Shown one piece after another: positions 3,962 to 59,900 of a DNA stretch of 64,000 nucleotides. Both the position numbers and the translations under genes were made by a program. How positions within the stretch are numbered: the first letter of the stretch is position 1; each line of letters opens with the position of its first letter. This DNA is from Amphiura filiformis (lineage: Eukaryota; Echinodermata; Ophiuroidea; Amphilepidida; Amphiuridae). The stretch spans positions 68,670,058 through 68,734,057 of the forward strand of contig NC_092635.1 in assembly GCF_039555335.1 (NCBI RefSeq). The letters are read 5' to 3'. The notes under the pieces were generated by a model. That model made no database searches, was not told the DNA's origin, and was given only the letters and a program-made list of their open reading frames with translations.

Positions 3962-3989
3962 GCGTTCCCTGGTAAGGGCCATGCAGCTA

Positions 3990-18476: not shown

Positions 18477-18951
18477 GGGTGTGATTTTCGGGTAATTTTG
18501 TGCCCGGTACCAGCGCATTTTTGAGCGGGTAAACGGGTACCGAAATTGCAACAAAATTTTTTATTTTTATTTTTAAAAATTTTTTCAAAGTTTTTTTCGG
18601 TTTTGTAGTGTCTCTGGACCTAGACCTAAATGCTAGGATCATGGTTTACCTAAAAAAAAAATTCAATGCATTTTGATATCATTATTATAGAGTATGACAT
18701 GAAAACTATGTATCAATTTTCATATTAAAAACACAAAACAATGTGCAAAATTCATTTTTTTTAGGTCAACCATGAATGATCCTAGCATTTAGGTCTAGGT
18801 CAGAGACACTACTAAACTCAAAAAAATTCGGTACTGGGAATTTCCTGCCGGGTAATAGGATTATCGGGCGGGACTCAAATTCCCGGGACTATCGTCTCAT
18901 ATAACACGGGCGGCATCATTATTTTAAGTAAAACAACAAGGCGGATATTGG
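18477..18951. mobile_element. Hairpin-bearing insertion splitting the 64-bp array
   Basis: Non-repeat block between array units. It contains a strong dyad: AGTGTCTCTGGACCTAGACC near 18,608 is mirrored by GGTCTAGGTCAGAGACACT near 18,792, with GCTAGGATCAT / ATGATCCTAGC inside. The core (TATGACATGA, TATCAATTTTCATATTAAAA) resembles the core of the MITE at 499-982. Exact termini are unclear. Confidence 0.55.
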
Positions 18952-19965
18952 GCATTCCAAATGCCTACAGATTATGGGAGAAATGATCTTCTGTGGGGGA
19001 CCATGTGCACATTGGGCATTCCAAATGCCTGCAGATTATGGAAGAAATGATCTTCTGTGGGGGGACCATGTGCACATTGGGCATTCCAAATGCCTGCAGA
19101 TTATGGAAGAAATGATCTTCTGTGGGGGACCATGTGCACATTGGGTATTCCAAATGCCTGCAGATTATGGGAGAAATGATCTTCTGTGGGGGACCATGTG
19201 CACATTGGGTATTCCAAATGCCTGCAGAGTATGGGAGAAATGATCTTCTGTGGGGGACCATGTGCACATTCCAGGGCATTCCAAATGCCTGCAGAGTATG
19301 GGAGAAATGATCTTCTGTGGGGGACCATGTGCACATTGGGCATTCCAAATGCCTGCAGATTATGGGAGAAATGATCTTCTGTGGGGGACCATGTGCACAT
19401 TGGGCATTCCAAATGCCTGCAGATTATGGGAGAAATGATCTTCTGTGGGGGACCATGTGCACATTGGGCATTCCAAATGCCTGCAGATTATGGGAGAAAT
19501 GATCTTCTGTGGGGGACCATGTGCACATTGGGCATTCCAAATGCCTGCAGATTATGGGAGAAATGATCTTCTGTGGAGGACCATGTGCACATTGGGCATT
19601 CCAAATGCCTGCAGATTATGGGAGAAATGATCTTCTGTGGGGGACCATGTGCACATTGGGCATTCCAAATGCCTGCAGATTATGGGAGAAATGATGTTCT
19701 GGGGGGACCATGTGCACATTGGGCATTCCAAATGCCTGCAGATTATGGAAGAAAGGATCTTCTGTGGGGGACCATGTGCACATTGGGCATTCCAAATGCC
19801 TGCAGATTATGGAAGAAATGATCTTCTGTGGGGGACCATGTGCACATTGGGCATTCCAAATGCCTGCAGATTATGGGAGAAATGATCTTCTGTGGGGGAC
19901 CATATGCACATTGGGTATTCCAAATGCCTGCAGAGTATGGAAGAAAGGATCTTATGTGAGAGAGA
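18952..19965. repeat. 64-bp tandem satellite-like array (about 16 units)
   Basis: Units begin GCATTCCAAATGCCTGCAG and contain GATCTTCTGTGGGGGACCAT. Starts are at roughly 18,953, 19,017, 19,081, 19,145 and so on, with a spacing of 64. Most units are identical or differ by 1-3 bases. The unit is not a multiple of 3 and ORFs run on both strands in all frames, so it is not coding. The array ends about 40 bp before the splice donor of PIP4K2 exon 2 (minus strand), so it begins the following intron. Confidence 0.95.
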
Positions 19966-32548: not shown

Positions 32549-33930
32549 GAATCTCTGGAAGCAAAAAAGTTTTGACTCTTTATCCGAATAAGCTGCCATT
32601 GATAAACCATGCCTCCAAAAAGGTCAGCTCGGTTGAGTAACAAGATGAACAGGTCAGCTGATACTGTGGGAGAGGAGCAATCTGAAGTTGAAGAATCTCC
32701 AAAGAAAGTAGCCAAGACTAACAAATCTCAACCAGTAGACAAGCCTAAAAAATCTCAACCGGCAGACAAGCTTAAAAAACCTCAACCAGAGTCTCAAGTA
32801 CCTCAACCAACAGAAGAGTCTCAAGCACCTCAAGCAGCTGAAGAGTCATCAGAACCACCTAAAACACAAGCAGTGCAGGTTCAAGAGGTGCAGGTACAAG
32901 AAGCATCATCGGAACCACCTAAAGTGCAAGAACCACAAGTACAGGAAGCACCATCAGAACCACCTGAAGCGCAGGTACAGGAGGCACCGTCAGAAGCGCA
33001 GGTACAGGAAGCACCTTCAGAAGCTCAGGTACAGGAGGCACCGTCAGAAGTTCAGGTACAGGAGGCTCCATCAGAAGCTCAGGTACAGGAGGCACCATCA
33101 GAAGCACAGGTACAGGAGGCACAATTAGAACCACCTGTAGTACAGGTACATGAGGCACCGTTGGAACCACTTGAAGTGCAGGTTCAGGCAGCATTGTCGG
33201 AACCCCCTGTCCAAGTACAGGTTCAGGAAGTACCGTCAGAACCCCCTGCTCAAGCAGCACCAGCACAAGAAGCACCATTGGAACCACCTCAAGTGCAAGA
33301 TGTACAGATACAGATAGTACAAGAGGCACCACCAGGTCAGCATCAAGTACCCATTCAACAAGAGACACATAATGTACAAGAAGTAACAACAGAAGAAGGT
33401 ACTGAACAAATTATTGTGCTTTCTATGGAAGTTGAGGAGCCAGCGACCAGTCAAGCAGCTTCCTCGTTGGAAGCTCAGCAAGCTGCAGCTATTCTTGTTG
33501 AAACAGCACAGAAAGAAATGACTTCAGCGCTACAAATAATTGAACACAATGCGCAATCACAAGAGCAGCCCATGGAAGTAGATCCATCTGCGCAGCCAAT
33601 CCCTGTTTCTGTTAGCGAAGTAGCCGCTGTGACCTCTGCTCCTACATCTGCCACATCGCCCATTCCAAATCAAGGCCCCTCCCCTCCTATGTTATCCAGC
33701 ACACCACTGCCTCCGGGTACCTCGCCAGAAACTCCTACATCGGCCCAGACTAGCATCTTGATCCAGGCATTTGATTCTGCAGTCACACCTGTGTCATTGA
33801 TACAATCAAGTCCACAACAAGGGGAAGGTCAGCAAATTCAATATGTGTCCTTTGATCAAGAATCATTGATGTCGTCAACAATAGGTAGTCCTGGCGTGCG
33901 CAAATGTGGTATATGTGGCAAAGTGTACAG
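32549..33930 (+). CDS. C2H2/PHD gene, first coding exon (5' UTR 32,549-32,608)
   Basis: The acceptor TTTTAG ends at 32,548 after a strong pyrimidine tract, so a 5' UTR exon must lie upstream. ATG at 32,609 has a good context (AAACCATGC). It encodes residues 1-440 plus two bases, ending KCGICGKVY, the first half of finger 1, at the donor GTGAGT (33,931). Confidence 0.9.
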
Positions 33931-36900
33931 GTGAGTTGCTTCAACATATCTGGGGTCCATTTCACTCAACTTTACGAAGCTTCGTAAGTCTCGAAATCGT
34001 TTGTAACTTACGATAATTAACTTACGACGAGTTGTAAGTTCCATTTCACTAAACTTACTTATGAACGGTACCCTTCGTAAGTAATAGGGATTTACTACAG
34101 GGACCCTTCGTAAACTTATGTCTAGTATTGGGTATTCGTAACTTTACGAATGGTTACTTGAGTAATGAGTTACGAAGGGTTCAAAGTTTAGTGAAATGGA
34201 CCCATTGTCACTCTTTTCTAAACAGAAATGAGCCAAAACCACCAATTGCGCACTAATTAATAATAACCTCTCCTGGCCAGATTCACAGCTGGGTATAATC
34301 CCTGGCACATGCCTGTGTAAATCAAGTGTCACTTACCCCTTATACATGTTCTGGATATCTGAATATTTGTATACAACATAACTGGTCAGTGATCACTAGT
34401 CTTGTACGCCAAGGGAGATGTTAATTGATCAGTGCCTCAAAAGGGGATTTGTAGTAAGACCATATCACAGCAGTAGTCTCACCTCTATAATTAGGTAGAG
34501 TTTTTTAGGTATGGCTTCAACGGCTAATATCAAAGGGTCAGTGCATGAAGGCCCTATATGCAGGGACATGCGATTTGCGCGGACCTTTTTTTCCGCGCAA
34601 TTGGCTATTTTTTTTCCTATGGGCAGGGATACATGATTTGCACTGAAAAAAGAGTTCCACGCAATTCCGCACAATTTGCTATTATTTTCCGCGCAAATCG
34701 CCTGTCCCTGCCTATATGTAATAGCTGCTCTGTAAACATTGGGGTCATCCAGGGTCAAATTGCCATAGATTGTTGCAGGTTCATAAAATTTTGTGGGAAC
34801 GACCACCGAAACAAGATAAAAATGACAAGGTCATTCAGGGTCATTCGGGGTCAAATCGTCATAGACTGTTGCAGGGTTATTAGTGATGCATATGACATGA
34901 AGGTCATTTTGGGCTTAAGTGAAATCACACTGGTTAAAATGATGCGCTACAAGGTGGAGGCATTGCAGCCAATGCTTGGTGTCGAGAACCGCTAAATTCT
35001 TGTTTTTAAAATTAAGTCAAAGTGGAGGCATTGAGGTTGATACATTTTGTTGAGAACTGTGTAAGCAGAGAACCAAGAAATTCTAGTTGTCTACGAAAAT
35101 AGTGCATTCAGACCATGGTCTCCAGTTCATCATTTTGCATCATTTTGTTTTTCTTAACATTTGTAATGTATACTGCATCAGTCTTTAACACTTTAAAAAA
35201 TTTTACTTTGCAGAAATCGCAATGGTCTTTACAAGCATCGGCTTGCCAAGCATCCACAGCTTGTCAATGCCAACAAACCAATTCACTGTCAAAACCCAGG
35301 CTGTGGATTTGACTGTCATCGTCTTGAAGTCCTCAGAGAACATATCACAGAAGCACACAAGATACCTATGACAATGATGACGGCCACATTTTCTAACATG
35401 GCTGGTGAGTAATTCAATTTTTTTTAGTAATTGATATTTTAAATCAGACAGAGGTATACCAGGCAACATTTCTTAGCCGAAAAATGTCCAAAGTTATCTT
35501 GAAAACCTGTCCCAAAATTGATTTTACCTTAGACAAAGGCAAACATACATAATTGCAATTGTGACAATTATTTGCCCATACCAAGTGCAAATGTGTGCAT
35601 TACAGATTGATTATTAATTGATGAATTGTTGACCATAAATGAGATTAAAATTGAAGAAGATGTATACCACAATTTTAATCAATTTGAGCATGATATTTCA
35701 AGTCAGTTCCCGTCCACTTGGTACCGTGGACTGCTATCAGTACTAAAATGCAGACTGCTCGAACTTTTCTAGATGTCAATCAAAATGTTAGTACTATTTA
35801 TGATAGGAGTCCTGAAATTGAAGTTGAGCCTCATTATTATTCACCATGGCTTTGAATCCTCCGAGATCTGAAAAAGGGGCCATAAAAATCCGAAATTCAT
35901 TCAATATAGAGGTATATATTTCTGAAGACTAAATTTTAGATGCAGCACATATTTAAGCACTGAAAGCTAACCTAACCTTCAAGTTACTTGACCGCTTATC
36001 TTTCAGAATTCATATTATGGAAGGAAAAGATCGAGAAAGAGAACTGTGCTAACTTTGTGAAGACCAGAGGTGCTAGCGTCAACACGCAGGGCCCTAACAA
36101 CAAGCATCGCTATTATTGTAGTCGGAGTGGGTTCCACAACTCAAAGAGCACGGGAAAGAGACGCAAAGTGACGACAAAGATGGGGGCGTATTGCACAGCT
36201 GGTATCAATGTCCTCGAGCACAAGAAAACAGGGTAAGTACTGAAGTTGTGCGATGAGAATCACAAAGAGGGCTTTATATTAATGTGTGATACCAACATGC
36301 TTGGAAAAAAATATGGAATTCAGGAAAATCCTTCCCTGGAAATTTTGACATCTTGAGAGAAATTTTGTTTTGTCAAAATAAAGAAATACATAAGTCATTG
36401 TGGGATATTTGGCTTTCCTTCCCAGGAAATGAACATTTTCTATGCAAAACAGTATTGTAATACACAATAATAGAAATTTAAGAATTGTTAAGAAATATCA
36501 GCTATCAAAACTTGATGTCCAGATCTGCTTTTCTAATTATTTAAAATATATTTTGTATACAACTCCATACTTAAAGGTAAAGGGGACAATCTATGCTCAC
36601 AGGCCAGAGTGCCCATCTCTATTTTGAAACAATTGGGCCAGACTCCTCCATATAATAATGCTGCGGGGAGATCGCTACACCTATAGACGAATCTGATGAG
36701 CCAAGCGATGGTCAGGATTAAGTCGGTCATAGTTGGGGCCATCCGCGCCAAACTAGCTTAGTTCGTTTGGATTGCGATCCATGATGCCCACTATCGCGAG
36801 CGCATCGGAGCGCGTAGCACTTGCGCCGCGTCACAGGAGCGGTAAACGCTGCACGCCTATGATACTGTGGCATCGCGTAAAATGGATGGATGGCCCCAAC

Positions 36901-39900
36901 TATGGCCGCCATTGAGGTGTAGGAATGTGGCTTGTCGGATTCGTCTATACCTCCTCCACAGCGAGTCTGTTATAAAGATGTTACCCATTTATACACCTGG
37001 GTGAGGAGAGGGAATAGGGTTGAAGAGCCTTGCCAAGTGTACAACACGTTGATACGGCATGGACTCGAACCTTGAAGCTACCTTACGATTATGAGTCAAA
37101 GTCCTAGAATGCTGCGCCACCGTGCCTGCCAAGGGTGCATAAACAGGTGTAAGGTAGGAAAAACAGTAGGGATGCAATTAGGTTGCAAATGTTAAACACA
37201 AGTAACAAAGGAAATCAAACTCTTTGTTTGACTCTGGCAGAGAGATCCAAGCTGAGGCATGCATCACTCATCATGGTCATCCTATTCAGTTGGAATACCT
37301 CAAGATCCCAGCCAAAGACAAGAGAGAGATTGCTAGCAAGATAGTCAAGGGCAAGAAGTGGGACCATATCTTGCAAGAATACCATGAAAGTGGTCTGAAA
37401 CAAGGTAAGTAGGGAATCAATCCTGCTCCTCCTCCTCCGTGTTCCTTCTCCACCTCATCTTCTCCTGATCCTACTCTTTCCTTCCTGTTCCTGCTCTCCC
37501 CCTCCTGTTCCTGCTCTTCCTCTCCTGCTCTTCTCCTGCGCCTGGTCTTCACATCCTGCTCCTGCTCTTCCCCTCATGCTCATGCTCTTCCCCTCCTGCT
37601 CTTCTCATCCTACTCCTACTCTTCCCCTCCAGCTCTTCTCCAGCTCCTGCTCTTCCCCTCCCGCTCTTCTCACCCTGCTCCTGCTCTTCCCCTCCTGCTC
37701 CTCACCTCCTGCTCTTCTCGTCCTGCTCTTCCCCTCCTGCTCTTCTCCTCCAGCTCCTTCTCTTCTCCTCCAGCTCCTGCTCTTCCATTCTAGATTTCCT
37801 GCTCCTGTTCTTCTCCTCTTCAGCTCCTCCCTTTCTCCTCCAGTTAGTAGAATTTTAATGTTATATATATATATCAATCTACTCCAGGCCTTAAAATGAT
37901 ATTTTTTAGTAACATTTTTGGGTTGGCATGTTATGGCATGTATGACTCACTGTACAGTATAGAGCACATTATTCAAAGCTATTTTCATGTGTATCTTGAT
38001 TGATATTTTGTTTTTGATTTCACTTGTGCAATTAAAAGAGACATGATAAAACATCTTTTTTGCAGCTGTTTAATTTAAACTCATTAAAACTCATTAGTCT
38101 CATTAGTCAATGTACATTGACTCCATAAACATTCAAGTAATTAATATTGGATGCAAAAAAACATGTTGGTAATGTGGTACCTTGTAACTCCAGTAGCTGC
38201 TAGGTATTAAATATGTACAATATGATATATCATATTGTACATATTTAACACCTAGCAGCTATTGGGGTTACGAGGTTTTGACAGAACAACAACGATTTAA
38301 TAGATGGCCCTGCTTGCTGAACCTATGAATGTGTCTATTTGTTGCTGGTTCGTTATGAATCAAAACCTGAATTGTGTTCTGTGAAATATCACTAAATTAG
38401 CCAACAAATTTGCTCTTTCATGTACCAGGTATTATAGATAGACAATCTATTTCATCAGGATTGTTCATAATTCACAATTTGCAAATGTTTCTTCTGTACA
38501 TGTCCGGAAATGCTTCGGTATGGAGGTCTTAGGCATGCCTCGGTGGCGTTTCGTGCTGCACTGTGGTACTTTCTCAAATTGACGCCACCAACGTCAAGTT
38601 CCAGCAGGAATCAGATGAGGAGTGTGAGAGTTGATCAGTCAATTTGATATGGTGCTACGGTGTGGTGTGGTGCGGAGCGTCATTGGGGTGTGCAGGGGAT
38701 CTTTGTGCCGAGGTGTTTTTGGATTTGTGCGGGGGAACATTTGCAAATTGTGAACTTATCAGTTTACCTACCTTGTGCAATTTCACTAATGTTTATTGAA
38801 TTATGCGATGCCTTTACCCTATATTTGGCAACTCAATTTTAGTATTATATTGTATTTTTAATGTATTTTATAGTGTTTTTTAAATATGCTTATAATTATG
38901 TACTGTGTATTTTTAGTTCTTTTATTTTGGTGTGTGTATAAGGGCCCCCATCCAGTGGGCCTGCGTGCCTGTTCGGGGTTGCCCTTTTGCACCACACACC
39001 GCATTTTGATATTTTGTGCAATAAAGATATTAAACTAAACTATTTCTAGAAGTCTAATTTGTCTCAAATGCAAATCACAAATAAGTAAGCACTCTTAAAT
39101 GAAAGTTTGCCCGATAAAATATTGAGCTATTCCAGTTGAAATCCATACACCCCCTATGGAATACATGACCGTAATCTCTCACACAGAGGGGTGGAGATAT
39201 CAAATGGAGCCACCCATTTAGGTAACACCATATAAAACGCACACTCCCTGTGTGCAAGATTAAGGTCATGTCTTCCATAGGGGGTGTAATGGATTTCAAG
39301 TGGAATACCCCATTTGGTTCATTCTTATGTTCTCATGTTCTTTGCTGGTGTTGACAGAAAATTTGCTGAATCTTACTCTACGTTGCAGGTACAAGGAGTA
39401 GTATATTAACAAAAAAAGACCTCATGAACATACAGCGAATTGTCAAGAAGCACTTGCCTCCGTCGGAACAAGGTGATGGGGTGAGCATCGATGATCAGCA
39501 GATTGAAATTGACAGCGCTGAATTTGATTGGATCCCTCCTCCAAGTGCCACAGAATCCGAAACTGAAATAGCGGTGGAATCGCTGCAACGTCTGGGAGAA
39601 GTCGTCACAACCAACGTGGCGACGCTGCGGGATACCCTTCTAGGGGACCTGGACCAAGTCGCGAGAAGTTGCAAAGATTGCCAAGATCGCGACAGTCTAC
39701 TGACGGCAGGGAGCCACGTCAAAGCGGCATTGAATGTCTTCAAAGAGATGCCAAATGTTGCCGGGGTGAACGGGGAAGGGTCGTCGCGTACTCGTCCGGT
39801 CAGAGAACAGGTGCTGAAAATAGCGGATGGTGCAGGTGGGGGAGATGGTAAAGTGGTGACGATGCAGACAGGTGCACAAGGGGAACAGGTGGCGACGATA

Positions 39901-42900
39901 GAGATTGCGGCAGAGAGCGCTATGAATATATTAGAGTCGATGGAGAACAACACAAACTCTGATGTACGTGTACCTGCACCGGCAGAGGCAGCGGAAGGGG
40001 TGAGTAAGAGACGCAATTAGGCCTAATGAAAAATGTTTTATTGGGGTAACAAGCTGAACAAAAGTAGGGTATATAATGTATACTATATACGGTTATACAC
40101 AGCTTTCAAAAACTGTATAATGAATTCTTGAGTGCAAAATATTCCAGTTTAATAGGTGCCCACATACTTTTGTTGTTACAGTACATCCTTTTGGTGAGTT
40201 AACAAATTTGGTCCTGGTTTCTGTTGTTCAGAACAAAAGAGAAGTGTTATTCTGCCATGTAGGGCTGCACGACATAGGCTTTTTTAGTAGTCGACTAATC
40301 GCCACCCAAATCGCGACTATGACTATTGTTGGCGACTATCAAAGGTCAAAATTTGCATGAAGTTCAAGTTGATTTTTTTGTTCAGAATACACTTAAAACA
40401 TACACTTTTTGTGCAGTAAACAGTCGGCCGATTACAGGACATTGCCGGGGACATTATTATTGTACACACAACTGACAAGTTACGACCATGACGACTCAAA
40501 AAATTATAATCAATAAGGTTAAGATAAACATGTAACTAACTTTCACGATGATTTTCAAGGCGGTAGCACAAGTTCTTAGACAATTTTTAGCAGTTTTAGA
40601 ACCCATCTTTACTTCAATTTTGTTGCTTGTTGAACTTTCTGGAATAGTCGCCAATTGGCAATCATTAGTCGTAGTCGCGACTGTCGCCAAATAGTTGCGA
40701 CTTCTACTGTTGGCGACTCAGTCGTGCAGGCCTACTGCCATGATGCCGATGGTTGACCTGCGGTTGGGTTTTGATGTCATCCTTAATGTAAAATCTGTAA
40801 TAACATTTGTGCAAATGCCATCGCCCAAACAACCACCTGAGTGACCTTGATTTCTCTTTTTATTTTACCTTCTGGATATTTCAATGCAAAATCGGCTTTG
40901 AAAATTGATGAGTACTTCCAAGTATTTCTTGCAAGTTTTATCAACATCTTAGGAGTAAAGTAAATTATTTCAGAAATATCTAATCATAGTTTACTTGATT
41001 GGTTCTTTATAGGAGGATGACATGCCAGTAATTACATATCGCCTTGTGCCTGCTGCGGCAGAGAACGCCACCTGCCCGTTAGATTCCTTGGCAACGACAT
41101 CACAGTATCGTACACTGGGTATCAGACTTACAAAAGAGATGTTATGTAAGTATGGGATGCCTAACCCTATCCCTAACCATAATTCCATGGCTCGCATCTT
41201 GACACTATCTGCCCATTAGATTCCTTGGCAACGACATCACAGTATGGTACACTGGGTATCAGACTTACAAAAGAGATGTTATGTAAGTATGGGATGTCCT
41301 AACCCTATCCCTAACCATAATTCCATGGCTCGCATCTTGACACCACCTGCCCATTAGATTCCTTGGCAATGGCATCACAGTATCGTACACTGGGTATCAG
41401 ACTTACAAAAGAGATGTTATGTAAGTATGGGATGCCCTAACCCTATCCCTAACCATAATTCCATGGCTCGCATCTTAACACTATCTGCCCATTAGATTCC
41501 TTGGCAATGGCATCACAGTATCGTACACTGGGTATCAGACTTACAAAAGAGATGTTATGTAAGTATGGGATGCCCTAACCCTATCCCTAACCATAATTCC
41601 ATGGCTCGCATCTTGACACCACCTGCCCATTAGATTCCTTGGCAATGGCATCACAGTATCGTACACTGGGTATCAGACTTACAAAAGAGATGTTATGTAA
41701 GTATGGGATGCCCTAACCCTATCCCTAACCATAATTCCATGGCTCGCATCTTGACACTATCTGCCCATTAGATTCCTTGGCAATGGCATCACAGTATTGT
41801 ACACTGGGTATCAGACTTACAAAAGAGATGCTATGTAAGTATGGGATGTCTAACCATAATTCCATGGCTCGCATCTTGACACTATCTGCCCATTAGATTC
41901 CTTGGCTCACAGTATCGTACACTGGGTATCAGACTTACAAAAGAGATGTTATGTAAGTATGGGATGCCCTAACCCTATCCCTAACCATAATTCCATGGCT
42001 CGCATCTTGACACCACCTGCCCATTAAATTCCTTGGCAATGGCATCACAGTATGGTACACTGGGTATCAGACTTACAAAAGAGATGTTATGTAAATATGG
42101 GATGCCCTAACCCTATTGGTGCCAATTTAGGTTTTAAATATTTGCCCATGAGCAGGGGCGTAGCAAGCGGGTGGACAAAGTCCAGGGTTAGGGATAGGGC
42201 TGATAAAGGAGATGTTAAAAGGGCCCGCAATGCTCCTTGTCCATGGGATCCCGAGGCTCTAGCTAAGCCCCTGTCCATGAGGCACTACCTTTAGCGAACT
42301 AAATTTAGCTTTGTTCATATCGACGATAATACGACACATACGACAGTCGATAACAGGCCTAGTAAGGTCATCTTGATTTAATAGTTTGTGTCAAAGCCCC
42401 TGCCCACATTATTAAAATTGACTGCTTTTTGCATGTTATTCCAGCTGGATTGAGTAAATTTCAGTTTTTTTCCGCTGTTCTATTTTTTTCCAAATCCACC
42501 ACACAAAATCTCACATCTGAGATTGTCATTCGTCAAAATAGCCTAAACTGTAAATCTTAATAAAATCCCATCTTGACCAAAGTGAAACCTCCTTGAGAGA
42601 TGAATAGGTGGTCTATTCTTGTCAGAAAGCTTGTCCCACAGATAAAATTTTTTTTTTTTAAACCTTAAAAAAACCCGCATTCCACATGAGGTTTTTAACT
42701 TGGGAATGGCTTTGAGACGAACTATTAAATTAAGATGGCCTAATATCATTAAGACCCCTAACTACTTTACTTTGTTCTTCATCCAACAGACACACTGTCC
42801 TTGATATGTGAGAAGCATCAGATGGATCGCTTATTATCCGGTGGTAATCTCATCAACAGAGAGGAGGTAGAGATCATCTGCTCTAAGCTTCCAGATGAGG

Positions 42901-45545
42901 TCATAGATGCTGATATGACGTCTATCAGAGTGTTGCTGGAGAGAGATGCCTGGTATCTGCTAGAGAGTGCTGGTAAGAAAGTTTGGAATTATCAGGATAA
43001 TGATACTCCAAAAGCTTTCATCAGTATTACCTTCTTGTAAGCTTACTCAGAGTATCAACACAGTGATCATACAGCTTACGGAATAAAGCTGTCTAATCCC
43101 TCAATGAAGTCTTGATAAAAGGCAAATTTTGATTATGCTTACATGATTTCAGATGCAGATATACATCGATCAGCTTAATTAAAAGTTGTTTTTTTTGTGT
43201 CTTCTCAAATATCCAAGGGCCACTGAAGTATAAAATTCTATGAGCCTTTATCCGTCATCAATTTCAGATACAGTTAGATATCTCTAAACCTTATTTCCAT
43301 CTTGTAATAATGTGTACATCCATATCGGAAGGGTGGGCTTGTCGGCTGCTGCATGTGTCTCTTTTCATTTGTTGGCTTTGGGTGGGTGCCGGACTCGACC
43401 CGGGTCGCGGTCGCTTGGGGTCGTCCCCGGGTTGCCTGGTTTGGGAATGTTTTCTGTATTCCTTCATGTAGGCAATGTGGCTTGGGGATGATTTGGAGTG
43501 GCCTCCACGTGGCATGGGTCTGGTTTTTGTTCCTGGCTAGTAGGTGGGGGGAGGCACATGTGGTGGCTGGCGGGTGCATCCTTGTGATGTACACACAATG
43601 TGTTTAAATAGTGCAATAGTATATCTTTTTTATGTAATTGCCCCAATGGGTTGGAGGAGTCACACCTTTTGGTGACAGTGACTTGATGCTTCTGACTCTT
43701 CCTGGCTAGCCCATTGGGTCTATTTCACTTTTGTTTCCTTTTGTATGTATTGCGTAATTCTACTTTGCTTTTTGATGTATTTTAGCCGAATTTGTAAAAT
43801 AAAATAAAATAAATAAAAATTCAAGTCTTTAACCAATGTCTAAGGCACATCATGGTATGGAATTCCGAAGGGTCTTGCAAAATTCAAGGTTGGGATAAAA
43901 TGCTTCAGATCAATTAGCAGAATAATGGCAGAAGATTCATATTTGGTACAAATGGAATGATGGAATAAAAGTGGACATTTCTATTTTCAGGTTTTTCAGT
44001 CCAATCAGCTGCTAACACCACCACATGAATATATCAGGGTATTCCAGTTGAAACCTATACACCCCCTATGGAAGACATGACCTTTTATCTTTCATATAGA
44101 GAGTGTGATTGTAAAATGGGGTTACCTGAATGGATAACTCCATTTGAAATCTACACCCCCTTTGTGAGGGATTAAAGTCCTGTTTTCCACAGGGGGTGTA
44201 TGGATTTCAGTTGGAATAGCTTGTTCTCTTCATGAATCTGTAATGATGCCCAGAATGACAAATTTAAAACAATCCGCAATTGACAAAAATTTATTGTGAG
44301 TAAAAGGTGTCACAAATGGATTTTATAACTATGGAATTATTCTACGTGGAAAAACAACTTTCTTTTAAATATTTGAAATCAATATTTGACCCTAGTATTT
44401 GATTTTGTTTTTTGAATAGTTGAGTTGAAACGTAATGACTGGAAGTGTGGCCTATGCGACAAGGTGACGGGCAAACTGCATATGATACGCTGCTGCTCAT
44501 GTAATAACTGGTTCCACTGGTGAGTATATAACTTTTATGCCATTTTCTTAAATGTTTGTGATATTTTTGCCAGGATTATAAGAATTTAAACTTTAACTAG
44601 TATTGGATATACAGCAAGTATTACGGAGAGAGAAAGATGTACAATCATTATTTGGTTCAGTGACGTGACGTGACAAAAGTGCCCACAATTGCGATTGGGT
44701 TTTTGAGTGAGTGGATGAGTGAAAGATCTTAATCAGAGCTTTGATATGACAAAAGTTCAGTCTTATGACTTTAGCACAAACCACTTTCAAACCTACTGAT
44801 CACTGAAGTCCTGAAACTGCCCCTTCCCTGTGATAGCGAAATATTTAGTGACCACTGGTAGATCTAGTACACCACAGAGAGGGTAGGTCATAGTTTTAAC
44901 CTTTGGTTTTTAAGGTAACAGCTTTATTGAGAACTCATCAGGGCTCAGATGCAGCGTTAGATGAGTGAATGAGGTGTGGGGGTGTGTGTGTGTGGTGTTT
45001 ATATGTGATTGGATGGGTGGGTGAATGGAGTTTTCAGCCACCTGTCCCCCCGTCATTTTGGATGGGCAGGTTGCTCCTGGGACTAATTAATGCCTTTGAC
45101 AGATGCTAAATTCTAAAAATAATGCTCAAATAAGTTCTGTGAACTCAAAACAAGACAATAGTAATAAATCAAGGCTATAGCAATAGCCATTTGGACGGAC
45201 TGAACCCCCAGAAGGTTCAGAGGTTTGATTTATGTTTTCAGGGTCAACTTTCGGACAGGGAGTTTTGGTGAAAATGGCAGGTACTTGTCAAATCTTAGCC
45301 AAGACCCTGATGGATGGGTGAGTGGATTGGTTGGTGTAGGAGAAACAAGTAGCTGTGCTCTGGATAAGAGAGCAAAAACATCAAAGGGGTCAAGAGACTG
45401 ATTTTAAAACTTGCTCCATTAACTTCTAATGTTTCTTTTACACAGGGTGTGTGTAGAGATAGAGGAACAGCCAACTGAGGAGTGGTTCTGCCCAGGATGC
45501 ATTCTAAGGAAGAGGTTGGTATTTAATGAAACGCAGTCAAGTTAA
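32609..45545 (+). CDS. C2H2 + PHD zinc-finger protein, nine coding exons
   Basis: Coding exons: 32,609-33,930; 35,214-35,404; 36,007-36,232; 37,241-37,404; 39,389-39,999; 41,013-41,145; 42,790-42,972; 44,420-44,519; 45,446-45,545. All junctions are GT-AG and phase-consistent, giving 1,009 residues. Residues 1-430 are low-complexity (P, Q, E and V rich). Two C2H2 fingers follow (C433/C436/H449/H454 and C466/C471/H484/H489). Next is a basic conserved-looking block (about 505-660: RYYCSRSG, CITHHGHPI, IPAKDKREIASKI, DHILQEY) of the kind seen near DNA-binding domains of MULE/FAR1-like or ALS2CR8-like proteins (inference). An acidic linker and a C-terminal C4HC3 PHD finger (C953, C956, C968, C971, H976, C979, C992, C995) complete it. 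It is probably a nuclear DNA- or chromatin-binding protein. I do not recognise an orthologue, so no symbol is given. Confidence 0.88.
32874..33300 (+). repeat. Coding 27-bp minisatellite (VQEAPSEAQ repeats)
   Basis: About fourteen imperfect units encode variants of QVQEAPSEA (27 nt), with longer P-rich variants at the edges. The unit length keeps frame, so copy number can vary without breaking the protein. The region is probably disordered. Confidence 0.9.
33953..34203. mobile_element. MITE with GGGTCCATTTCACT termini
   Basis: GGGTCCATTTCACT at the left and AGTGAAATGGACCC at the right are perfect inverted ends. Inside, repeats of TTACGAA/TTCGTAA form further hairpins. It lies 22 bp after the first coding exon's donor. 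The target duplication is not clear. Confidence 0.8.
34553..34716. mobile_element. MITE with CAGGGACATGCGATTTGCGC termini
   Basis: CAGGGACATGCGATTTGCGC near 34,561 is mirrored by GCGCAAATCGCCTGTCCCTG near 34,692 (one mismatch). TTTCCGCGCAA motifs recur inside. It lies in the intron between coding exons 1 and 2. Confidence 0.72.
35214..35404 (+). CDS. C2H2/PHD gene exon 2 (zinc fingers)
   Basis: Acceptor TTTGCAG, donor GTGAGT. Completes finger 1 (NGLYKHRLAKH) and encodes finger 2 (CQNPGCGFDC...REHITEAH). Both have the spacing C-x2/4-C-x12-H-x4-H. Phase in 2, out 1. Confidence 0.9.
36007..36232 (+). CDS. C2H2/PHD gene exon 3
   Basis: Acceptor TCTTTCAG, donor GTAAGT. Encodes FILWKEKIEKENCANFVKTR, then NKHRYYCSRSG and SKSTGKRRKVTTK, which is cysteine-containing and strongly basic. 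Could be a FAR1/FLYWCH-like zinc-binding module, which is not proven. Confidence 0.88.
36684..36957. mobile_element. TA-flanked MITE (TAGACGAATC termini)
   Basis: TAGACGAATCTGATGAGCCA faces TGGCTTGTCGGATTCGTCTA. TA duplicates lie at 36,682-36,683 and 36,958-36,959. An inner pair, CATAGTTGGGGCCATCC / GGATGGCCCCAACTATG, strengthens the hairpin. It lies in the intron between exons 3 and 4. Confidence 0.82.
37051..37126 (-). tRNA. tRNA-Met(CAT)-like sequence, probable SINE head or pseudogene
   Basis: The minus strand reads GGCACGG (acceptor), TGGCGCAGC (A-box-like), the anticodon loop CTCATAA with CAT, GGTTCGAGTCC (perfect B box) and CCGTATC. The acceptor stem pairs at six of seven positions, the T stem at four of five, and the anticodon stem at four of five counting a G-U. 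Internal mismatches and its position in an intron favour a tRNA-derived SINE or pseudogene over a functional gene. Confidence 0.55.
37241..37404 (+). CDS. C2H2/PHD gene exon 4
   Basis: Acceptor TCTGGCAG, donor GTAAGT. Encodes EIQAEACITHHGHPIQLEYL then KIPAKDKREIASKIVKGKKW. The C-x3-HHGH pattern plus the helical block recalls domains associated with Mutator-like transposases in animals. This is inference from memory of the pattern. Confidence 0.88.
37424..37845. repeat. Pyrimidine-rich minisatellite (CTCCTGCTCTTCCC)n
   Basis: About 420 bp of imperfect CTCCTGCTCTTCCC units on the plus strand, starting 20 bp after the exon 4 donor. The long ORFs on both strands (S/P/L-rich and E/R/G-rich) are artefacts of the repeat. 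Confidence 0.9.
38183..38275. repeat. 92-bp near-perfect palindrome
   Basis: CAGTAGCTGCTAGGTATTAA and AATATGTACAATATGATA are mirrored around position 38,230 (TATCATATTGTACATATT, TAACACCTAGCAGCTATTG). There is almost no loop, so it can form a cruciform. Confidence 0.85.
38640..39045 (+). mobile_element. Possible 3' tail of a non-LTR retrotransposon
   Basis: GC-richer stretch (GGGCCCCCATCCAGTGGGCC, GTTCGGGGTTGCCC) followed by GTGCAATAAAGATATTAAAC, resembling a LINE 3' end with its AATAAA signal. There is no ORF. Identification is tentative. Confidence 0.4.
39129..39306. mobile_element. Palindromic MITE, 'CCATACACCCCC' family
   Basis: ATTCCAGTTGAAATCCATAC and its mirror near 39,288-39,306. The inner CTCACACAGAGGGG and CACTCCCTGTGTGC blocks are also mirrored. 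It ends 82 bp before the exon 5 acceptor. Confidence 0.82.
39389..39999 (+). CDS. C2H2/PHD gene exon 5
   Basis: Acceptor CGTTGCAG, donor GTGAGT at 40,000. Begins SSILTKKDLMNIQRIVKKHL and becomes acidic and low-complexity. Without splicing the frame ends at TAG 40,018-40,020. A transcript that retained this intron would lack the PHD finger. Confidence 0.85.
41013..41145 (+). CDS. C2H2/PHD gene exon 6
   Basis: Acceptor TTCTTTATAG, donor GTAAGT at 41,146. Encodes MPVITYRLVPAAAENATCPL, then SLATTSQYRTLGIRLTKEML. Its last 63 nt plus donor are the first unit of the 138-bp array that follows. Confidence 0.88.
41080..42110 (+). repeat. 138-bp tandem array duplicating the end of exon 6 with its splice donor
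   Basis: Eight units. The first contains the real exon 6 end. In each, ATTCCTTGGC...GAGATGTTAT is followed by GTAAGTATGGGATG at 41,146, 41,283, 41,421, 41,559, 41,697, 41,835, 41,953 and 42,091 (the last reads GTAAAT). Between donors lie CCCTAACC motifs that suit a branch point, and GCCCATTAG just before ATTCC. Units 2-6 therefore define potential 63-nt exons at 41,220-41,282, 41,358-41,420, 41,496-41,558, 41,634-41,696 and 41,772-41,834, all open in the host frame. Unit 7 has a 7-nt deletion and unit 8 lacks the AG. Confidence 0.92.
42153..42273. mobile_element. hAT-type MITE, 121 bp
   Basis: The termini CAGGGGCGTAGCAAGC and GCTCTAGCTAAGCCCCTG are flanked by 8-bp repeats CCCATGAG (42,145-42,152) and TCCATGAG (42,274-42,281), one mismatch. 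CAGGGG ends with an 8-bp duplication are typical of hAT elements. Confidence 0.78.
42790..42972 (+). CDS. C2H2/PHD gene exon 7
   Basis: Acceptor ATCCAACAG, donor GTAAGA. Encodes TLSLICEKHQMDRLLSGGNL through LLERDAWYLLESA, a predicted helical region without a recognised domain. Confidence 0.87.
43300..43830 (+). mobile_element. Possible non-LTR retroelement 3' end with AAATAAA-rich tail
   Basis: A GC-richer body (GGACTCGACCCGGGTCGC) followed by AT-rich DNA ending in AAAATAAAATAAAATAAATA near 43,797-43,820. The tail suggests retroposition, but no reverse transcriptase is seen. The small ORFs over it have no recognised homology. Confidence 0.35.
44041..44217. mobile_element. Palindromic MITE, 'CCATACACCCCC' family
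   Basis: ATTCCAGTTGAAACCTATAC and its mirror ATGGATTTCAGTTGGAAT. It lies in the intron before the PHD exon 8. Confidence 0.82.
44420..44519 (+). CDS. C2H2/PHD gene exon 8 (PHD first half)
   Basis: Acceptor TTGAATAG, donor GTGAGT. Encodes WKCGLCDKVTGKLHMIRCCS then CNNWFH: five of the eight PHD zinc ligands. Confidence 0.9.
45446..45545 (+). CDS. C2H2/PHD gene exon 9 (PHD second half, probable stop)
   Basis: Acceptor TTTTACACAG. Encodes VCVEIEEQPTEEWFCPGCIL, then RKRLVFNETQSS and TAA (45,543-45,545). The zinc ligands finish at CPGC. AGAG|GTTGGT at 45,515 could be a weak donor leading to a different C-terminus. No polyadenylation signal could be assigned with confidence. Confidence 0.8.
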
Positions 45546-46865: not shown

Positions 46866-48084
46866 ATATTATGTGGACTTGAAATATATCTGGACACTGT
46901 GTTATGCTGGAACCTTTGAGGTACAATGAAAAAGGTTGTGAATGTCATTCCAAATGAAATTTGTTATTGTATACGACTTATTCAGTGATCAATCGATACA
47001 TGTATGCCTAGATACATGCTCAGTCATCTTGGGAATGTGTGTTTGTATAGAAATACCAACATTTTTAACATGCATCAAAAAATCCCACACACCTGTTCAT
47101 CAACCGAGTGGATGATGTCAGACCTTTGGTAATAATCCACCTGCCAGAAGTCATCATCCATGGAGTTGAACGCTGACCGACTGAAGTTGGAATTGAGGTG
47201 TCCTCACTTTGTCTACCAGGACCATTTGCACCACAGAGTTCTTGAAGAAATCTTGGTTGCACTAATGGAAGTGTCATCAATTAAAACACAAGTTTCTGTT
47301 CCATTTAATTTAACTGTTGTTGTCTACTTTACCCTTGTATTCTGGTGGAGCATAAAGGCTATAGTCCAACATATTTGCGAGCGATTTTTTTGCAGCAAAC
47401 AATAGCCACTGTGATAGATGCACCGACAAATTTCCTGCTGACATCTGTCGCAGTACTATTGTTTTCTGCAGAAAATCACTCGCAAATGTGATGGATTAGA
47501 GCTCTGCCTTAACGATTATACAAAAATCACCGCAAGACGTCAGACTAAAGACTGGTCTTATCACACTGGGCAATGCTATAATTTAAGCATACAACAGTGG
47601 GTGTATGGATATCAATTGGAATAGTCTCGGTTACCTGTACAAGAACTTAGGGGACTGATCCTGGCTGTGATGGTTCATTGTGGCATGTATAGGGTGTTCA
47701 CTTCCCTGAATGTTGCTAAATGGTTAATATGGTGTGTGTTGGGCCACAGTGATCAGCACAACTATTTTAAGTGGGATGAGACTTGTGGGTTTATCCCTAT
47801 GCGTAGAGCACTACAAATCACTTTGCCTTTTCTTTTTAATGTGTCCAAATTCAGTGACAGGGTTATTCATGTGATATTCATTGTAAATAAATGTTTGGTT
47901 GTGATGAGATTACAGAGATTAGCAAGTGTTCAGACTCTAAATAGCCAAGTACTTCACACTATGATAAAGCTACCATATTGGATTGTCAGTGTGGATACCA
48001 AAATAGAGTAGTTGCATTTATTGGCGCAAGTCTGTATATGAACAAGAAGTTTTGAGTATTACAAAGGTTTGGCATGCATTTAGG
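46866..48084. other. Non-coding, nothing firm
   Basis: Two ORFs (47,160-47,405 and 47,667-48,011) have no recognisable domain. GCGAGCGATTTTTTTGCAG / CTGCAGAAAATCACTCGC at 47,379-47,486 form an inverted pair that suggests another small MITE. Confidence 0.3.
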
Positions 48085-48254
48085 CTATCCCAGTTGAAAT
48101 CCATACACTCCTTATGGAAGACATGACCTTAATCTCCCAAACAGGAAGTCGGAATTTCAAATGGGATTACCGGAATGGGAGACTCCATTTGAAATCTATA
48201 CCCACTGTGTTGGATATTTAAGGTTATGTCTTCCATATTTCCACTGAAATAGCC
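48085..48254. mobile_element. Palindromic MITE, 'CCATACACCCCC' family, right arm degraded
   Basis: Left arm CAGTTGAAATCCATACACTC. The right arm lacks the GGGGGTGTATGGATTTC part and continues as CCACTGAAATAGCCC. Confidence 0.72.
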
Positions 48255-49412: not shown

Positions 49413-49840
49413 TTAATCAGACCATCTTGATTTAAATACTTAATAACCCATATATTTGGTCAATGTAGGCGGGGAAAGTCCCACTTCTGTTTCTGTAGTG
49501 TGATACAGTACAGCAGATGTATTGTTTTAAAGGAAGATCTTTTATTTATTATTTAGCAAAAGTATTTAATAAAGATGCTTCAACATGGTATGTTGGGACT
49601 TCAAAGTACATCAGAATAACATTAAACGGGTCAAACGTTTAAAGATAAAAATTTGCTATTCCATTTTGTAGCAATTTAGGATTAGAAGTAAGAGCAATTT
49701 TTTGTTCTATACGAAAATGTTTACTCTGCAATTATTCAATGATTTGCATTTGTTTAAATAAATTGACATGAATTCAACAAAAGTATGGTGTGTTAATTGT
49801 TGGTTTGTAGTAATATTATAAGAGCATGGCCTAGTGTGCC

Positions 49841-50017
49841 ATTCCAATTAAAATCCATACACCCACTAAGATAGACATGACCTTAATCTTCCACACAGGG
49901 AGTGTGAATTTCAAATGGGGTTGCCTGAATGGGCGATTCCATTTGAAATCTACACCCACTGTATGGGAGATTTAGGTCATGTCTTCTATAGGGGGTGTAT
50001 GGATTTCAACTGGAATA
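49841..50017. mobile_element. Palindromic MITE, 'CCATACACCCCC' family
   Basis: ATTCCAATTAAAATCCATAC against GTATGGATTTCAACTGGAAT. The middle CACACAGGGAGTGTGAATTT is mirrored in part. This is one of the best preserved copies. Confidence 0.83.
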
Positions 50018-50508
50018 GCCCATGGATAGGGTCTTTGGTTTTGGTGTGTTTGTGGTCTAGGGTTCAATTCCCGACAGTGGCAATTACAGGGTGTCCCAGA
50101 ATGATTTATACCATGTTTGAACAAAATATCAAAAATATAGTCAACAGTGTATCTAATTTTAATAAGTGCAATACAATGCCACACATGTCTCCTACTTATT
50201 CTGTGATTTTCATGGAAATAGCTTGATTCGTTTTGGCGTGACATTGCTATTACTGAAAATGGACGAAAACTACATGTTCGTAGTTTACAGTGCAAAGGTA
50301 TCATAACACATGAATCCTTTATCACCATCATTCAGCCACACTGTGCAATATATTGGAGAAATCCTACATTCTTTGATAGGAAATACACCAAATTTGGCAC
50401 AGATGTAGGTAGAGCTTACAATGCTAAATAATTCTTGATAATGGGATTAAGTGAAACATTTCAATATGACATCAGATATAATACTTTTACGATAAGGATA
50501 ATGAACTG
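50018..50508. other. Non-coding, nothing recognised
   Basis: AT-rich. The antisense ORF over 49,972-50,331 overlaps the MITE and is incidental. Confidence 0.3.
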
Positions 50509-51480: not shown

Positions 51481-52230
51481 ATTGTACCCTATTCTAGAAC
51501 ACCGTTTGTAACTATACCATTTTAACACCACAGAATGTATATTCGTACTTTTTTTATGGTATATATATCGAACAGACAATTATATAGTTATGTGACCTTT
51601 GTCTCGAAAGCGTCACCTAACTCTACTATATATGGTTATGTGAAAGTAGTATTTCTAGTATTTGGCGTGCACGTATTATCTAGAATCTATTGTTTAGCGT
51701 GCAGGTTTTAGATAATGCATTGTTTAGCGTGCAGGTTTATATAATTTGGGCTGTGAAGGGTAGTTCGCGAAAATAATGCACGGGAGAAGAATACATAACG
51801 ATGAATAGAAACGGGCACTAGAAGTGTATATTTACATAAGAAACAGGGACCATAAAGCAATTTCTCTGCTTGTGCTGCATTCGTATACATAACATACTGT
51901 CAGAAAAATACCTTAATGATACTTCTGTATTGGATTCATCAGAATACAAAGACAGTGCAGTCAATGCTATCTCTGCCCTTCAAAATAATGACAAATATAG
52001 TAAGAATATTATGCATGATTTCACTGTTTTTCTTTATTACAAACACATGTATGAACAGTAATCCAAAAAACACAAGTTCCAAGGATCTACAGTGTCTATT
52101 AGAAAAAACCACTGGCACTTTTCCAACATGTGCACCTGTTAATTGCAGAAAAAGAGCTGGGAATGAGGTGCCAATGTTTCATAACATGACTCAATCAGAA
52201 GAATCCGCCTCTGCTTTTAAACAGTACATG
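51481..52230. other. Non-coding, small duplications only
   Basis: TGTTTAGCGTGCAGGTTT occurs twice (51,691 and 51,721). Two overlapping ORFs in 51,870-52,242 lack recognisable features. Confidence 0.3.
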
Positions 52231-52407
52231 TGTTCCAGTTAAAATTCACACAACCGTATGGAAGACATGACTTGAATCTGCCACACATGGGGTGTGGATT
52301 TCAAATGAAGTTACCCATTCAGGTAACCATATTTGAAATTTGCACTCCCTGTGTGGAAGATTAAGGTCATGTCTTCCATTGGAGGAGTGTTGATTTCTAA
52401 TATAATA
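52231..52407. mobile_element. Palindromic MITE, 'CCATACACCCCC' family, degraded
   Basis: CGTATGGAAGACATGACTTG and AGGTCATGTCTTCCATTGG are the best preserved mirrored blocks. The outer ends have diverged. Confidence 0.72.
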
Positions 52408-52540
52408 GCTTATTCCATGCATTCCCAAAGTGCTAAGCTTTTCTGACAAACTGGAGCAAAAAGGGAAATGTTCCAAACACCAAAGACTGTGGGAAATTAG
52501 TCAAGCTGTTTTTAAAGTTTGACTCGACTACTCAGTGCTA

Positions 52541-56643: not shown

Positions 56644-56919
56644 CTACCAAAATCCTGGTAAAAGAAGTGCAGTGTTTTTCACATAATCTAAATAGGCTGG
56701 GTCTTTTCCATATCGCTTCATCCCTTGTCTCTCCAAGATTGGTACCCCACTGATTCTCGTTAGGAGGAGGTAGACAAATATTGGTGAAATGACGCTGAGA
56801 TGCTGGTATCCTGACATGACGGAGGAGGATGACAGGTAGAGACCGGCCCACAGGAGGATCTCACCAAGGTAGTTAGGATGTCTGCTGATACTCCATAGAC
56901 CTGTGCTGATGAATTTACC
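56644..56919 (-). CDS. DUF1295 gene terminal exon
   Basis: Acceptor TCCCCAG. Encodes GKFISTGLWSISRHPNYLGE, a hydrophobic region and the C-terminus LLLPGFW, then TAG. The ending fits the family's usual C-terminus. No retention signal is evident. Confidence 0.94.
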   Translation of the reverse strand, partial: GKFISTGLWSISRHPNYLGEILLWAGLYLSSSSVMSGYQHLSVISPIFVYLLLTRISGVPILERQGMKRYGKDPAYLDYVKNTALLLPGFW

Positions 56920-59900
56920 CTGGGGATAGATTAATGTAAAAATACCATGGTAAGGTAAGATATTTTGACAGAGTCCTTTTGGTTTGCACACACTGTGTAT
57001 ATTGTGTGAAAAATACTAGATCATTTGTGGATGTAGCCTATGGTTCAATGTGCCTGTATGGTTCTAGTCTCTCTCACTCTCTTCTTTAGACCACATGTTT
57101 TCACATGTGAGATATAGTAGAACTACCTGTCTTGTACCGTAGGCCTACAATTAGCTCTATGGCCTTGTTTTGCAAATCTGGTCTACTAAAAAGGTCAATA
57201 GCCTTTCTCAACATCTACAATATTATAATGTGGTATCTGTTAAAGGCATTAATTTTGCCCTCAAGGAAGAGGCAGTTCCTTTAGAATGATAAGGTCATTT
57301 TAGTGTTGTTTAGAACAATTAAATACAAAAGGACGTTGAACCCTATCATTGGCTATATCTCAAAATCCATATTAACGACAATCGACTCATTTAGCTTGAT
57401 CACATCACATATACATACCGCATTATCAGGATCAGCCTTGAATACAGTTTTCTGATAATCAGCAACAGCTTCTAGAAGGAACCCTGCTGTCCACAGCCCC
57501 CAGCCTGCATAATCTCTAAGACCCAATGGCTTGTCCCTCTTCTCAGAATTTAAGATCATGGTTGGTAACAGAGTAAGCCATACCCATAGAGCTGAAAATG
57601 TAAACAGAAGCAAATGACAGAATGATTAAATCTCAGCAGCACACCCCTACCCAAACCAAACTTGAGTACTCCCACCTACAAGAGATGGGTAATGGGTACA
57701 TGTCACTCTTAAACACAATAAATGCTTTTTGTGTTTAATAATAATAAAGAATAAATTAGCTGTCCATTGATATGCAATACAATAAGAACATGTCACAAAT
57801 AATCTGAAATATAGATGCTTGAAAAAACTTTTCAAACTTTTTTGAGGAGTTTATATATTTGATCGATATGTTGTTTCTAAAAAGCTATCCCCGAAAGCTA
57901 TATGCATATATTTGAATATTTTTAATTGTAAAAAAATACTGATTGCAAATTTTGTGTTGCTTTTAATAAACAAAATCACTGAATGAAGTATTGAGCTATC
58001 ATAGATCCAGTTGAAATCCATACACCCCCTATGGAATATGTGTCCTTAATCTTCCACACAGGAAGCATGAATTTGAAATGGGGTTACCTGAATGAGTGAC
58101 TCTTTTGAAATCTACACTCCTGTGAGAGAGATTAAGGCTGTGTCTTCCATAGGGATATTCCAAAAATGCCTTGGCTCATCCAATTAGATAATAGTTAAAG
58201 GGGCATTTCGTGATCCACAGCCTCATCCCCCACTTTTCTCAAAAAAGTTGAGATTTTTATATCACTGGAAACCTCTGGCTACATAATGTTTATGTACAAA
58301 ATATTTCTTGCAGATTAATTCGTTTTGCAAAGATATCGTGAAATTTGAATTTCGTTCTGGTGCACCAGAACGAAATTACAACGCATTGTCTATGGAGCAG
58401 TGTAATACACATAATCATGCATAACTCGTAAACATAAAATCGGAATCAACTGATATTTTGGGAATATGCTTTTTTCGTGGATATGTACTGATAAATGTCA
58501 TAAAAAGAGGATGCTAGGATCACGAAATACTCCTTTAAATTTTAATAACACTATCTATAAACAACAGAATTATATTTTTGAAAGATATAGCCAGAGCCTT
58601 AACCAGGGTGTGCAACACCCCCCCTCCCCCAATATGCAAAAGTATACAAAAAGTCCCATAATTTAAGCAGCTTTTTTGGTCAAAAAAAGTTCCAAATTTG
58701 AGGAAGAAAGTCCACTATTCACAAATCCCCCCCCACCCTCCTTAGAAAAAAGTCCACTTTTTCAAAATCAGCACCCCCCATACGGGCCTGCCTATAGCTT
58801 TAATATAAAGTCCATTACCTTGTATAGTCCAATACACAAAGAATGTTTTTGGGTTGTGTTTGACTTTGTCAAATCTACTATCCCCTCCAGCCTGTAGGAC
58901 ACGGGTGAACAGGAATAATCCAAGTCTGCATGGGGAGAAGAAAACAAATGGTCATAAACTTTTTTGAAAAAACAAAACAAACAATGAAATCAACACATTC
59001 AATATTTCTTTCAAAAGGTTTTACACAATAATCGAAATAACTTCATGATAAAATGTAGTTCATTAAGGGATCTAGAATGAGCGTTTATGGCGTTTCAACA
59101 GTATTTTTTGTGGGACATGAGAGCACCTCAGACGTATCGAATTGCATTCTGAATATGAAGAATGTCTTTCTGATTCAAATAATTTTCAGTTTATGAAAAT
59201 CACGATATAATACAAATTTTATGACAAATTAATAAAATTTGATATTTTTCACATTTTGAGATATAACAGTCCTCAAGTAAATTTTATAAATTTAATGATA
59301 TATTCTTAAAGTGTACGTAGCTGGGAGGAAAAGCCGACGATCAATTGAAAATTTTGACATTTCATATTGAAGATATGGATTTTTTTTTTTTTTCCCAAAC
59401 GGACCTAATTTTTTTGGTGTTTTGGGGAAAAAATCCATATCTTCAATACGAAAGGTCAAAATTTTCAATTGATCGTCGGCTTTTTATCCCACCTACATAC
59501 ACTTCAAATATAAATCATCAGATTTATGAAGTTTACTTGAGTACTGTTAAATATCAAAAATATCAATTTTAATGATTTGCCATAAAATGTGTATTACATT
59601 GCGAATTTCAAAAATCAAAATTATTTGATATCAGAAGGACATTCTTCAGTATTCAGAATGCAATTCGATAGGTCTGATGTGCTCTAATGTCCCACAATAA
59701 ATACTGTCCAAACGTTCATACCCCTTCCCTTAAAGCCATATTATAACATTTCTTTAAAAATAGATTAGTATTTATTTTCCATAAAATGTTAGCTTTTACT
59801 GTCAGATATATCCCATTTTAATTTTGAGCCGAACAAGTGAGGTAAAGCAAAGAAAATTGGAATTTACTACTAGCGCCAATGCATGTTACTCTGGCGGTTG

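Follow-up and report, generated by a model that had tools for sequence, protein, structure and literature searches.

A stretch of 64,000 nucleotides from the ophiuroid Amphiura filiformis, here called the window, contains a predicted coding exon whose end, together with its splice donor, recurs head to tail in the following intron. Are these copies new exons in the making, as the earlier note on this DNA proposed, a series of misleading donors, or a repeat that resembles an exon array? Our analysis indicates that the array is probably a minisatellite, recent in origin and near-neutral; exon 6 would use its own donor for splicing, and copies 2–8 would be mostly unused.

The host gene is a prediction. 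Its nine coding exons, assembled by frame and splice consensus, form one continuous open frame, in which exon 6 ends and exon 7 starts in phase 1, the phase given in the earlier note, and the predicted junction reads ...KEML-Y-TLSLICEK. The predicted product has a repetitive N terminus, C2H2-like and FAR1-like segments, and a C-terminal PHD finger. This PHD finger lies above the Pfam cut-off (28.7 bits versus 24, E 1.3e-6), with TFIID subunit 3 as the nearest solved PHD (E 5e-7); the FAR1 and C2H2 matches fall under the curated cut-off. Within the predicted model, joining exon 6 to exon 7 keeps the frame through to the PHD finger, which favors the near-neutral reading. Searches for relatives of the product of exons 6–9 (161 amino acids) in viral and prokaryote collections, which have no bearing on conservation among animals, gave 1 and 26 pattern matches, none of them confirmed, and a DNA pattern search of viral contigs gave no match. 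Exon 1 contains, at 32707–33248, a 27-bp coding minisatellite (with a 36-bp variant) that encodes APSEAQVQE-like repeats.

Tandem Repeats Finder places the array at 41068–42116, with a period of 138, 7.8 copies, 92% matches and a score of 1804, the second highest among its 39 rows in the window. When exon 6 is compared with the array, homology begins at 41065, and each unit corresponds to 81 nt of exon 6 (41065–41145) followed by the donor and the start of the intron. The earlier note was right about the 138-nt period and about the exon end and donor in the unit; the repeated coding part, which it gave as 63 nt, is longer. The eight copies, anchored on ATTCCTTGGC, are spaced by 137, 138, 138, 138, 138, 125 and 131 nt, with donor positions at 41146, 41283, 41421, 41559, 41697, 41835, 41953 and 42091. 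The last copy breaks off after CCCTAACCCTAT, so that the array ends inside this telomere-like stretch, and the 13-nt deletion of copy 6 falls in the same place. The positions of all features are collected in Table 1.

Table 1. Features of the array and of the predicted host gene (window coordinates).
Feature	Position	Strand	Basis or remark
Host gene, predicted; nine coding exons, one continuous frame	32609-45514	+	exon model, translation
Predicted exons 1-5	32609-33930, 35214-35404, 36007-36232, 37241-37404, 39389-39999	+	
Predicted coding exon 6, 133 nt	41013-41145	+	exon model
Tandem array, 8 copies (exon 6 included)	41065-42116	+	unit = 81-nt exon tail + ~57-nt intron head
Copy 1, last 81 nt of exon 6	41065-41145	+	exon 6/array comparison
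Exon 6 donor GTAAGT (copy 1)	41146-41151	+	TAT/GTAAGT, T at -1
In-frame TAG on reading exon 6 through its donor into copy 2	41217-41219	+	end of putative acceptor
Copy 2, candidate cassette, 63 nt (YSLATTSQYGTLGIRLTKEML)	41220-41282	+	
Copy 3, candidate cassette, 63 nt (YSLAMASQYRTLGIRLTKEML)	41358-41420	+	
Copy 4, candidate cassette, 63 nt	41496-41558	+	
Copy 5, candidate cassette, 63 nt	41634-41696	+	
Copy 6, candidate cassette, 63 nt; 13 nt deleted from intronic part	41772-41834	+	
Copy 7, 56 nt; frameshift by 7-nt deletion	41897-41952	+	
Copy 8; AG to AA, donor to GTAAAT	42028-42090	+	
Predicted coding exon 7; in-frame junction with exon 6 (phase 1)	42790-42972	+	exon model
Predicted exons 8, 9	44420-44519, 45446-45514	+	exon 9 end and beyond uncertain

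The array is real and not a product of chance. A 23-base piece of the intronic part of the unit matches seven times (at most three mismatches), all within the array, against 0.00 expected in shuffles, and a 19-base piece matches eight times in the window at the same tolerance (0.01 expected), six times in the array and twice at 51.4 kb. We found no convincing second place for the intronic part within the window that would mark the array as a dispersed element. The best BLAST match outside the array covers 26 nt at 81% identity (position 51403, E 0.06), and a 20-base pattern from the intronic part matches at 21893 and 21941 with three mismatches each (0.14 expected).

By the head-to-tail order and high mutual identity of its copies (Tandem Repeats Finder, eight-copy alignment), the array is a minisatellite, or intragenic tandem repeat. 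Minisatellites are common in the window, which we counted in favor of an ordinary repeat: others are a 64-bp unit repeated 15.8 times at 18947 and a 23-bp unit repeated 13.3 times at 13114, and the host gene itself has the exon 1 repeats of 27 bp and, in intron 4, a C/T repeat. As in other minisatellites and VNTRs over exons or introns, the unit measures tens to hundreds of bases and the near-identical copies carry indels. Unlike these, the array begins in a coding exon, whose donor recurs with each unit and is changed in the last one.

The earlier note regarded CCCATTAG as a separate acceptor preceding the repeated coding part. This did not hold: within the predicted model, the motif is coding sequence of exon 6 itself, where it reads CCCGTTAG and where TTAG belongs to the codons CCG TTA G (context ACC TGC CCG TTA GAT). 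The predicted exon 6 acceptor, a TTTATAG whose last base is 41012, lies outside the array. Because CCCATTAG sits inside copied coding sequence and the array starts only at 41065, the predicted 3' splice site of exon 6 was not duplicated, which again speaks for the near-neutral reading. A scheme in which the exon 6 acceptor was copied with each unit was rejected, since the array begins within exon 6.

According to the near-neutral reading, a segment across the boundary of exon 6 and intron 6, consisting of the 81-nt exon tail, the donor and ∼57 nt of intron, would have been duplicated in tandem. Copy 1 would still be exon 6, its donor (41146) joining exon 7 (42790), and copies 2–8 would lie within intron 6 as mostly unused duplicates. 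The in-frame, stop-free appearance of these copies would be inherited from the source coding sequence, and they would carry an acceptor-like TTAG because it is part of that copied sequence. Indeed, most of the cues cited for cassette exons follow from copying the end of a coding exon and its donor. We infer a recent, near-neutral array whose copies 2–8 the spliceosome largely ignores. Six identical weak donors and one altered donor downstream of exon 6 would nevertheless be hard to ignore fully, and “unused” is an assumption.

How much do frame and openness say about exon function? The five 63-nt intervals of the earlier note were confirmed in copies 2–6: each is a multiple of three without an in-frame stop, lies between TTAG and GTAAGT, and encodes 21 residues in frame (YSLA..TLGIRLTKEML). 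Phase and open frame are lost in copy 7 and the AG in copy 8, and the described decay of the outer copies, with a 7-nt deletion in one and loss of AG plus a GTAAAT donor in the other, is borne out. In a simulation, each of 8 exons received 2000 random duplications across its boundary. For the seven exons other than exon 6, 71% of the outcomes (0 to 99% by exon) contained at least one AG..GT cassette that was in frame and free of stops; therefore, frame and openness are nearly automatic. Just 8% contained one whose acceptor reached 5.07 bits or more, the grade found in the array (none in four exons; 3%, 11% and 43% in the other three), whereas duplications of exon 6 gave a cassette in 65% and one with an acceptor at least array-grade in 58%. 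Acceptor quality is a prior property of exon 6 that is uncommon among the exons of the gene, a mild point for cassettes and against the near-neutral reading.

If the TTAG of each copy acted as an acceptor, nascent cassette exons would insert between zero and five extra 21-residue modules before exon 7, and copy 7 would shift the frame. We regard this as distinctly unlikely. The same degree of doubt attaches to the view that a minisatellite is turning into a cassette-exon array, in which the unit brings the parent donor, the TTAG of the parent coding sequence becomes the new acceptor, and the terminal copy has already been silenced at both sites. If it were true, a change in copy number would directly set the number of 21-residue modules in a chromatin-type PHD protein.

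The arrangement of the putative splice signals is compatible with such cassettes. The GTAAGT of each copy and the TTAG of the next flank stretches of 62–75 nt, as potential splice sites only; the would-be introns measure 74, 75, 75, 75, 75 and 62 nt, so that the uniform 75 nt of the earlier note applies to four of six. CTAAC was found as claimed and lies ∼43 nt before TTAG; the deletion in copy 6 leaves one instead of two. TTAG is the first AG after this motif, and the 74–75-nt spacing, the upstream CTAAC and the lack of an intervening AG count for cassettes and, as far as the last two are concerned, against the near-neutral reading.

Splice sites were scored with vertebrate-like frequency tables (Shapiro-Senapathy-like), and the comparisons hold within the host gene only. 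The acceptors of the eight model introns score 3.1–10.4 bits; TTAG of copies 2–7 lies inside this range (5.07–5.08), which counts for cassettes and against the near-neutral reading, and the site of copy 8 lies far below it (−5.5). The internal TTAG of exon 6 already scores 5.36, so the copies gained nothing as acceptors, and a putative acceptor that is exonic and no better than in exon 6 weighs against cassettes. Of 455 intronic AGs outside the array (the first 30 nt per intron left out), 47 equal or exceed the copies in score, a point for the near-neutral reading; the same count for the eight model acceptors is 7, 10, 13, 14, 16, 25, 34 and 84. From these scores, the candidate TTAG acceptor appears plausible, on the weak side, and unimproved after duplication. 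Of the seven best intronic AGs outside the array (12.2–13.4 bits), five belong to a C/T-rich part of intron 4 and the others are at 36426 and 44193. None of the seven has an exon in the model, so score alone is a poor predictor of use, a further point against cassettes. The C/T-rich repeat and its continuation occupy 37463–37850, soon after the exon 4 donor, and carry these five AGs.

Divergence between the copies was compared for signs of selection. Pairwise differences between copies amount to 97/2219 in the exonic and 24/1283 in the intronic part, and variable substitution columns to 9/81 and 4/57, respectively (Fisher p 0.56). If only the 63-nt cassette is taken, 4 of 63 columns vary versus 4 of 57 intronic ones (p 1.0); three of the four cassette columns are replacements and one is synonymous, against a synonymous share of 24% among all possible single changes. 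In these small numbers, neither exonic versus intronic divergence nor replacement versus synonymous changes gave a sign of coding constraint on the cassettes, which argues against their use. Selection that keeps the cassettes coding is unsupported, as variation is no lower in the exonic than in the intronic parts. Selection that spares splice-critical columns is likewise unsupported: of ∼14 substitution events, counted by eye from the eight-copy alignment, 2, both in copy 8, fall in the eight AG/GTAAGT columns, with 0.8 expected. Coding potential and plausible splice signals thus remain of the nascent cassette array proposed in the earlier note, but no measure of selection favors its use.

Copy 8 (42026–42096) offers a point against the near-neutral reading. 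Its only two private substitutions fall exactly on the AG and the donor, with a chance of ∼0.006 (uncorrected and post hoc), and this paired loss might reflect selection against the splicing of copy 8. Other variants bear on the growth of the array. ACGACA is found in copies 1 and 2 and ATGGCA in copies 3–6 and 8 (the position is missing in copy 7), CTATC and CCACC variants alternate across copies 2–6, and the exonic parts are identical between copies 3 and 5 and, save for the deletion in copy 7, between copies 4 and 7. Such a pattern suggests that the array grew in part by two units at a time, and that copies exchanged sequence with one another.

The private indels and substitutions of the copies argue against a copied-out error of the assembly. 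An assembly artefact or a single-haplotype allele, in which the copy number would be wrong or peculiar to one individual, could draw on the likeness of the copies (∼93–100% at aligned sites). The usual assembly fault, however, is a collapsed repeat and not an expanded one, and we consider this explanation highly improbable.

The donors permit another reading, in which copies 2–7 act as decoys. Use of a downstream donor without removal of the intervening pieces would extend exon 6 into the TAG at 41217 and thereby truncate the protein; the outcome would be truncation or nonsense-mediated decay, with gene output falling in proportion to copy number. The gene would work if the copy 1 donor were used, or if the 74–75-nt pieces between copies were removed. 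Such decoys appear rather unlikely, although several properties of the donors are in their favor. Besides the TAG that is met on reading through the exon 6 donor, these include its score of 6.44, the lowest of the eight scored model donors (others 9.1–13.0), which copies 2–7 repeat and which is matched or exceeded by just 18 of the remaining 527 intronic GTs. On the other side, the copies have no predicted exon 6 acceptor upstream, and this acceptor should help the definition of exon 6. Moreover, a substantial loss of product would be counter-selected, yet the array has reached eight copies.

RNA structure does not separate the donors clearly. Strong structure of the unit was not found in the two stretches folded, both of which are less stable than most shuffles (41065–41365, z +1.54, 94 of 100 shuffles at least as stable; 41421–41558, z +0.87, 159 of 200). 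In copies 1–7, an exonic ACTTAC 20 nt upstream of the donor (41126–41151 in exon 6) is a perfect complement of GTAAGT, and the predicted hairpin of ∼−6 to −7 kcal/mol could hide the donor. As ACTTAC is present in exon 6 itself, the hairpin may affect the real donor too. The donor is predicted to be mostly paired in six of the eight copies (all but 6 and 8), with a mean unpaired probability of 0.14–0.23; at flank 40, the values are 0.14–0.15, below the 10% point of 300 random GU sites (0.20). Exon 6's own donor consequently has no clear advantage over its copies, which counts for decoys. The model donor at 37404 is predicted to be even more paired at flank 40 (0.04), however, so that pairing does not distinguish used from unused donors.

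An upstream complement accompanies 19 of 75 GTRAGT sites in the window, 14 of them in the array and 5 at 33940–34200; outside these two regions, which were excluded after the matches there had been seen, none of 54 sites has one. The region at 33940–34200 in intron 1 is a cluster of ACTTACG/CGTAAGT palindromes and possibly a small mobile element.

In tandem exon duplication, whole exons are copied with their own acceptor and donor, giving arrays of alternative exons. The array described here shares with it the repeated coding sequence, the splice signals and the possibility of alternative isoforms, but copies only the 3' part of the exon and the donor. Because the predicted acceptor (41012) was not copied, the array is not a tandem exon duplication.

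The array can also be compared with routes of intron gain. The tandem genomic duplication model is reportedly due to Rogers (1989) and Hellsten (2011). A review (PMC3443670) presents tandem genomic duplication as the one suggested mechanism of intron gain that had by then been demonstrated in vivo, and “imprecise” gain via latent sites adds nucleotides to the coding sequence. As in this model, duplicated exonic sequence may bring latent AG and GT into use; in contrast to its classic form, which copies an AGGT-containing exonic segment, the array's donor is an existing one (PMC3443670, PMC4974935).

An RdRp gene of potato gained an intron by tandem duplication across an intron–exon boundary, supported by 106 RNA-seq reads; there are two copies, with the acceptor inherited and the donor latent in the exon (PMC4974935). 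Both cases involve a boundary-crossing duplication, with one splice signal inherited and the other latent and exonic, and the potato gene is a precedent for the cassettes. Whereas the potato unit combines an intron end with an exon start, the array combines an exon end with an intron start, its donor being inherited and its putative acceptor latent, so that the array is the mirror image of the potato case. The array also has eight copies instead of two. Novel introns of Drosophila are described as having weaker splice sites and more stop codons (PMC2809761). No earlier description of a multi-copy array of exon end and donor was found among the matches listed in the open-access literature (titles and abstract starts).

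If the copies were spliced, they would form a clean natural series, with near-identical donors in a row, latent acceptors and one copy altered at both sites, for watching the birth of exons and introns and for measuring donor choice by a spliceosome that faces identical 5' splice sites. Should they be unspliced, the locus illustrates how readily an exon array can be mimicked by a repeat beginning within coding sequence, and how weak frame and stop-free length are as evidence for one.

Several other features were noted in the window. Downstream of the array in intron 6, a possible 140-bp element at 42143–42284 has weak inverted ends (CAGGGGCGTAGC.. / ..GCTAAGCCCCTG, 81% over 26 nt, E 1.6), and its interior contains a 14-nt perfect complement (42186–42199) to CCCTATCCCTAACC of six array copies. 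A MITE-like family, recognized by eye from a motif like CATACACCCCCTATGGAAGACATGACC and its inverse, occurs at 39120–39330, 44030–44230, 48080–48250, 49840–50020 and 52220–52410. The 64-bp minisatellite mentioned above extends over 18947–19958 with 96% matches. On the minus strand, 3710–5255 contains open frames, one of two with a sub-threshold Pfam match (Phage_int_SAM_1, E 0.022), which we take, as a guess, to belong to a tyrosine-recombinase (DIRS-like) retroelement. The minus strand also carries, at 56644–57625, two or more exons of a gene for a DUF1295 family protein (E 4e-27 and 7e-14).
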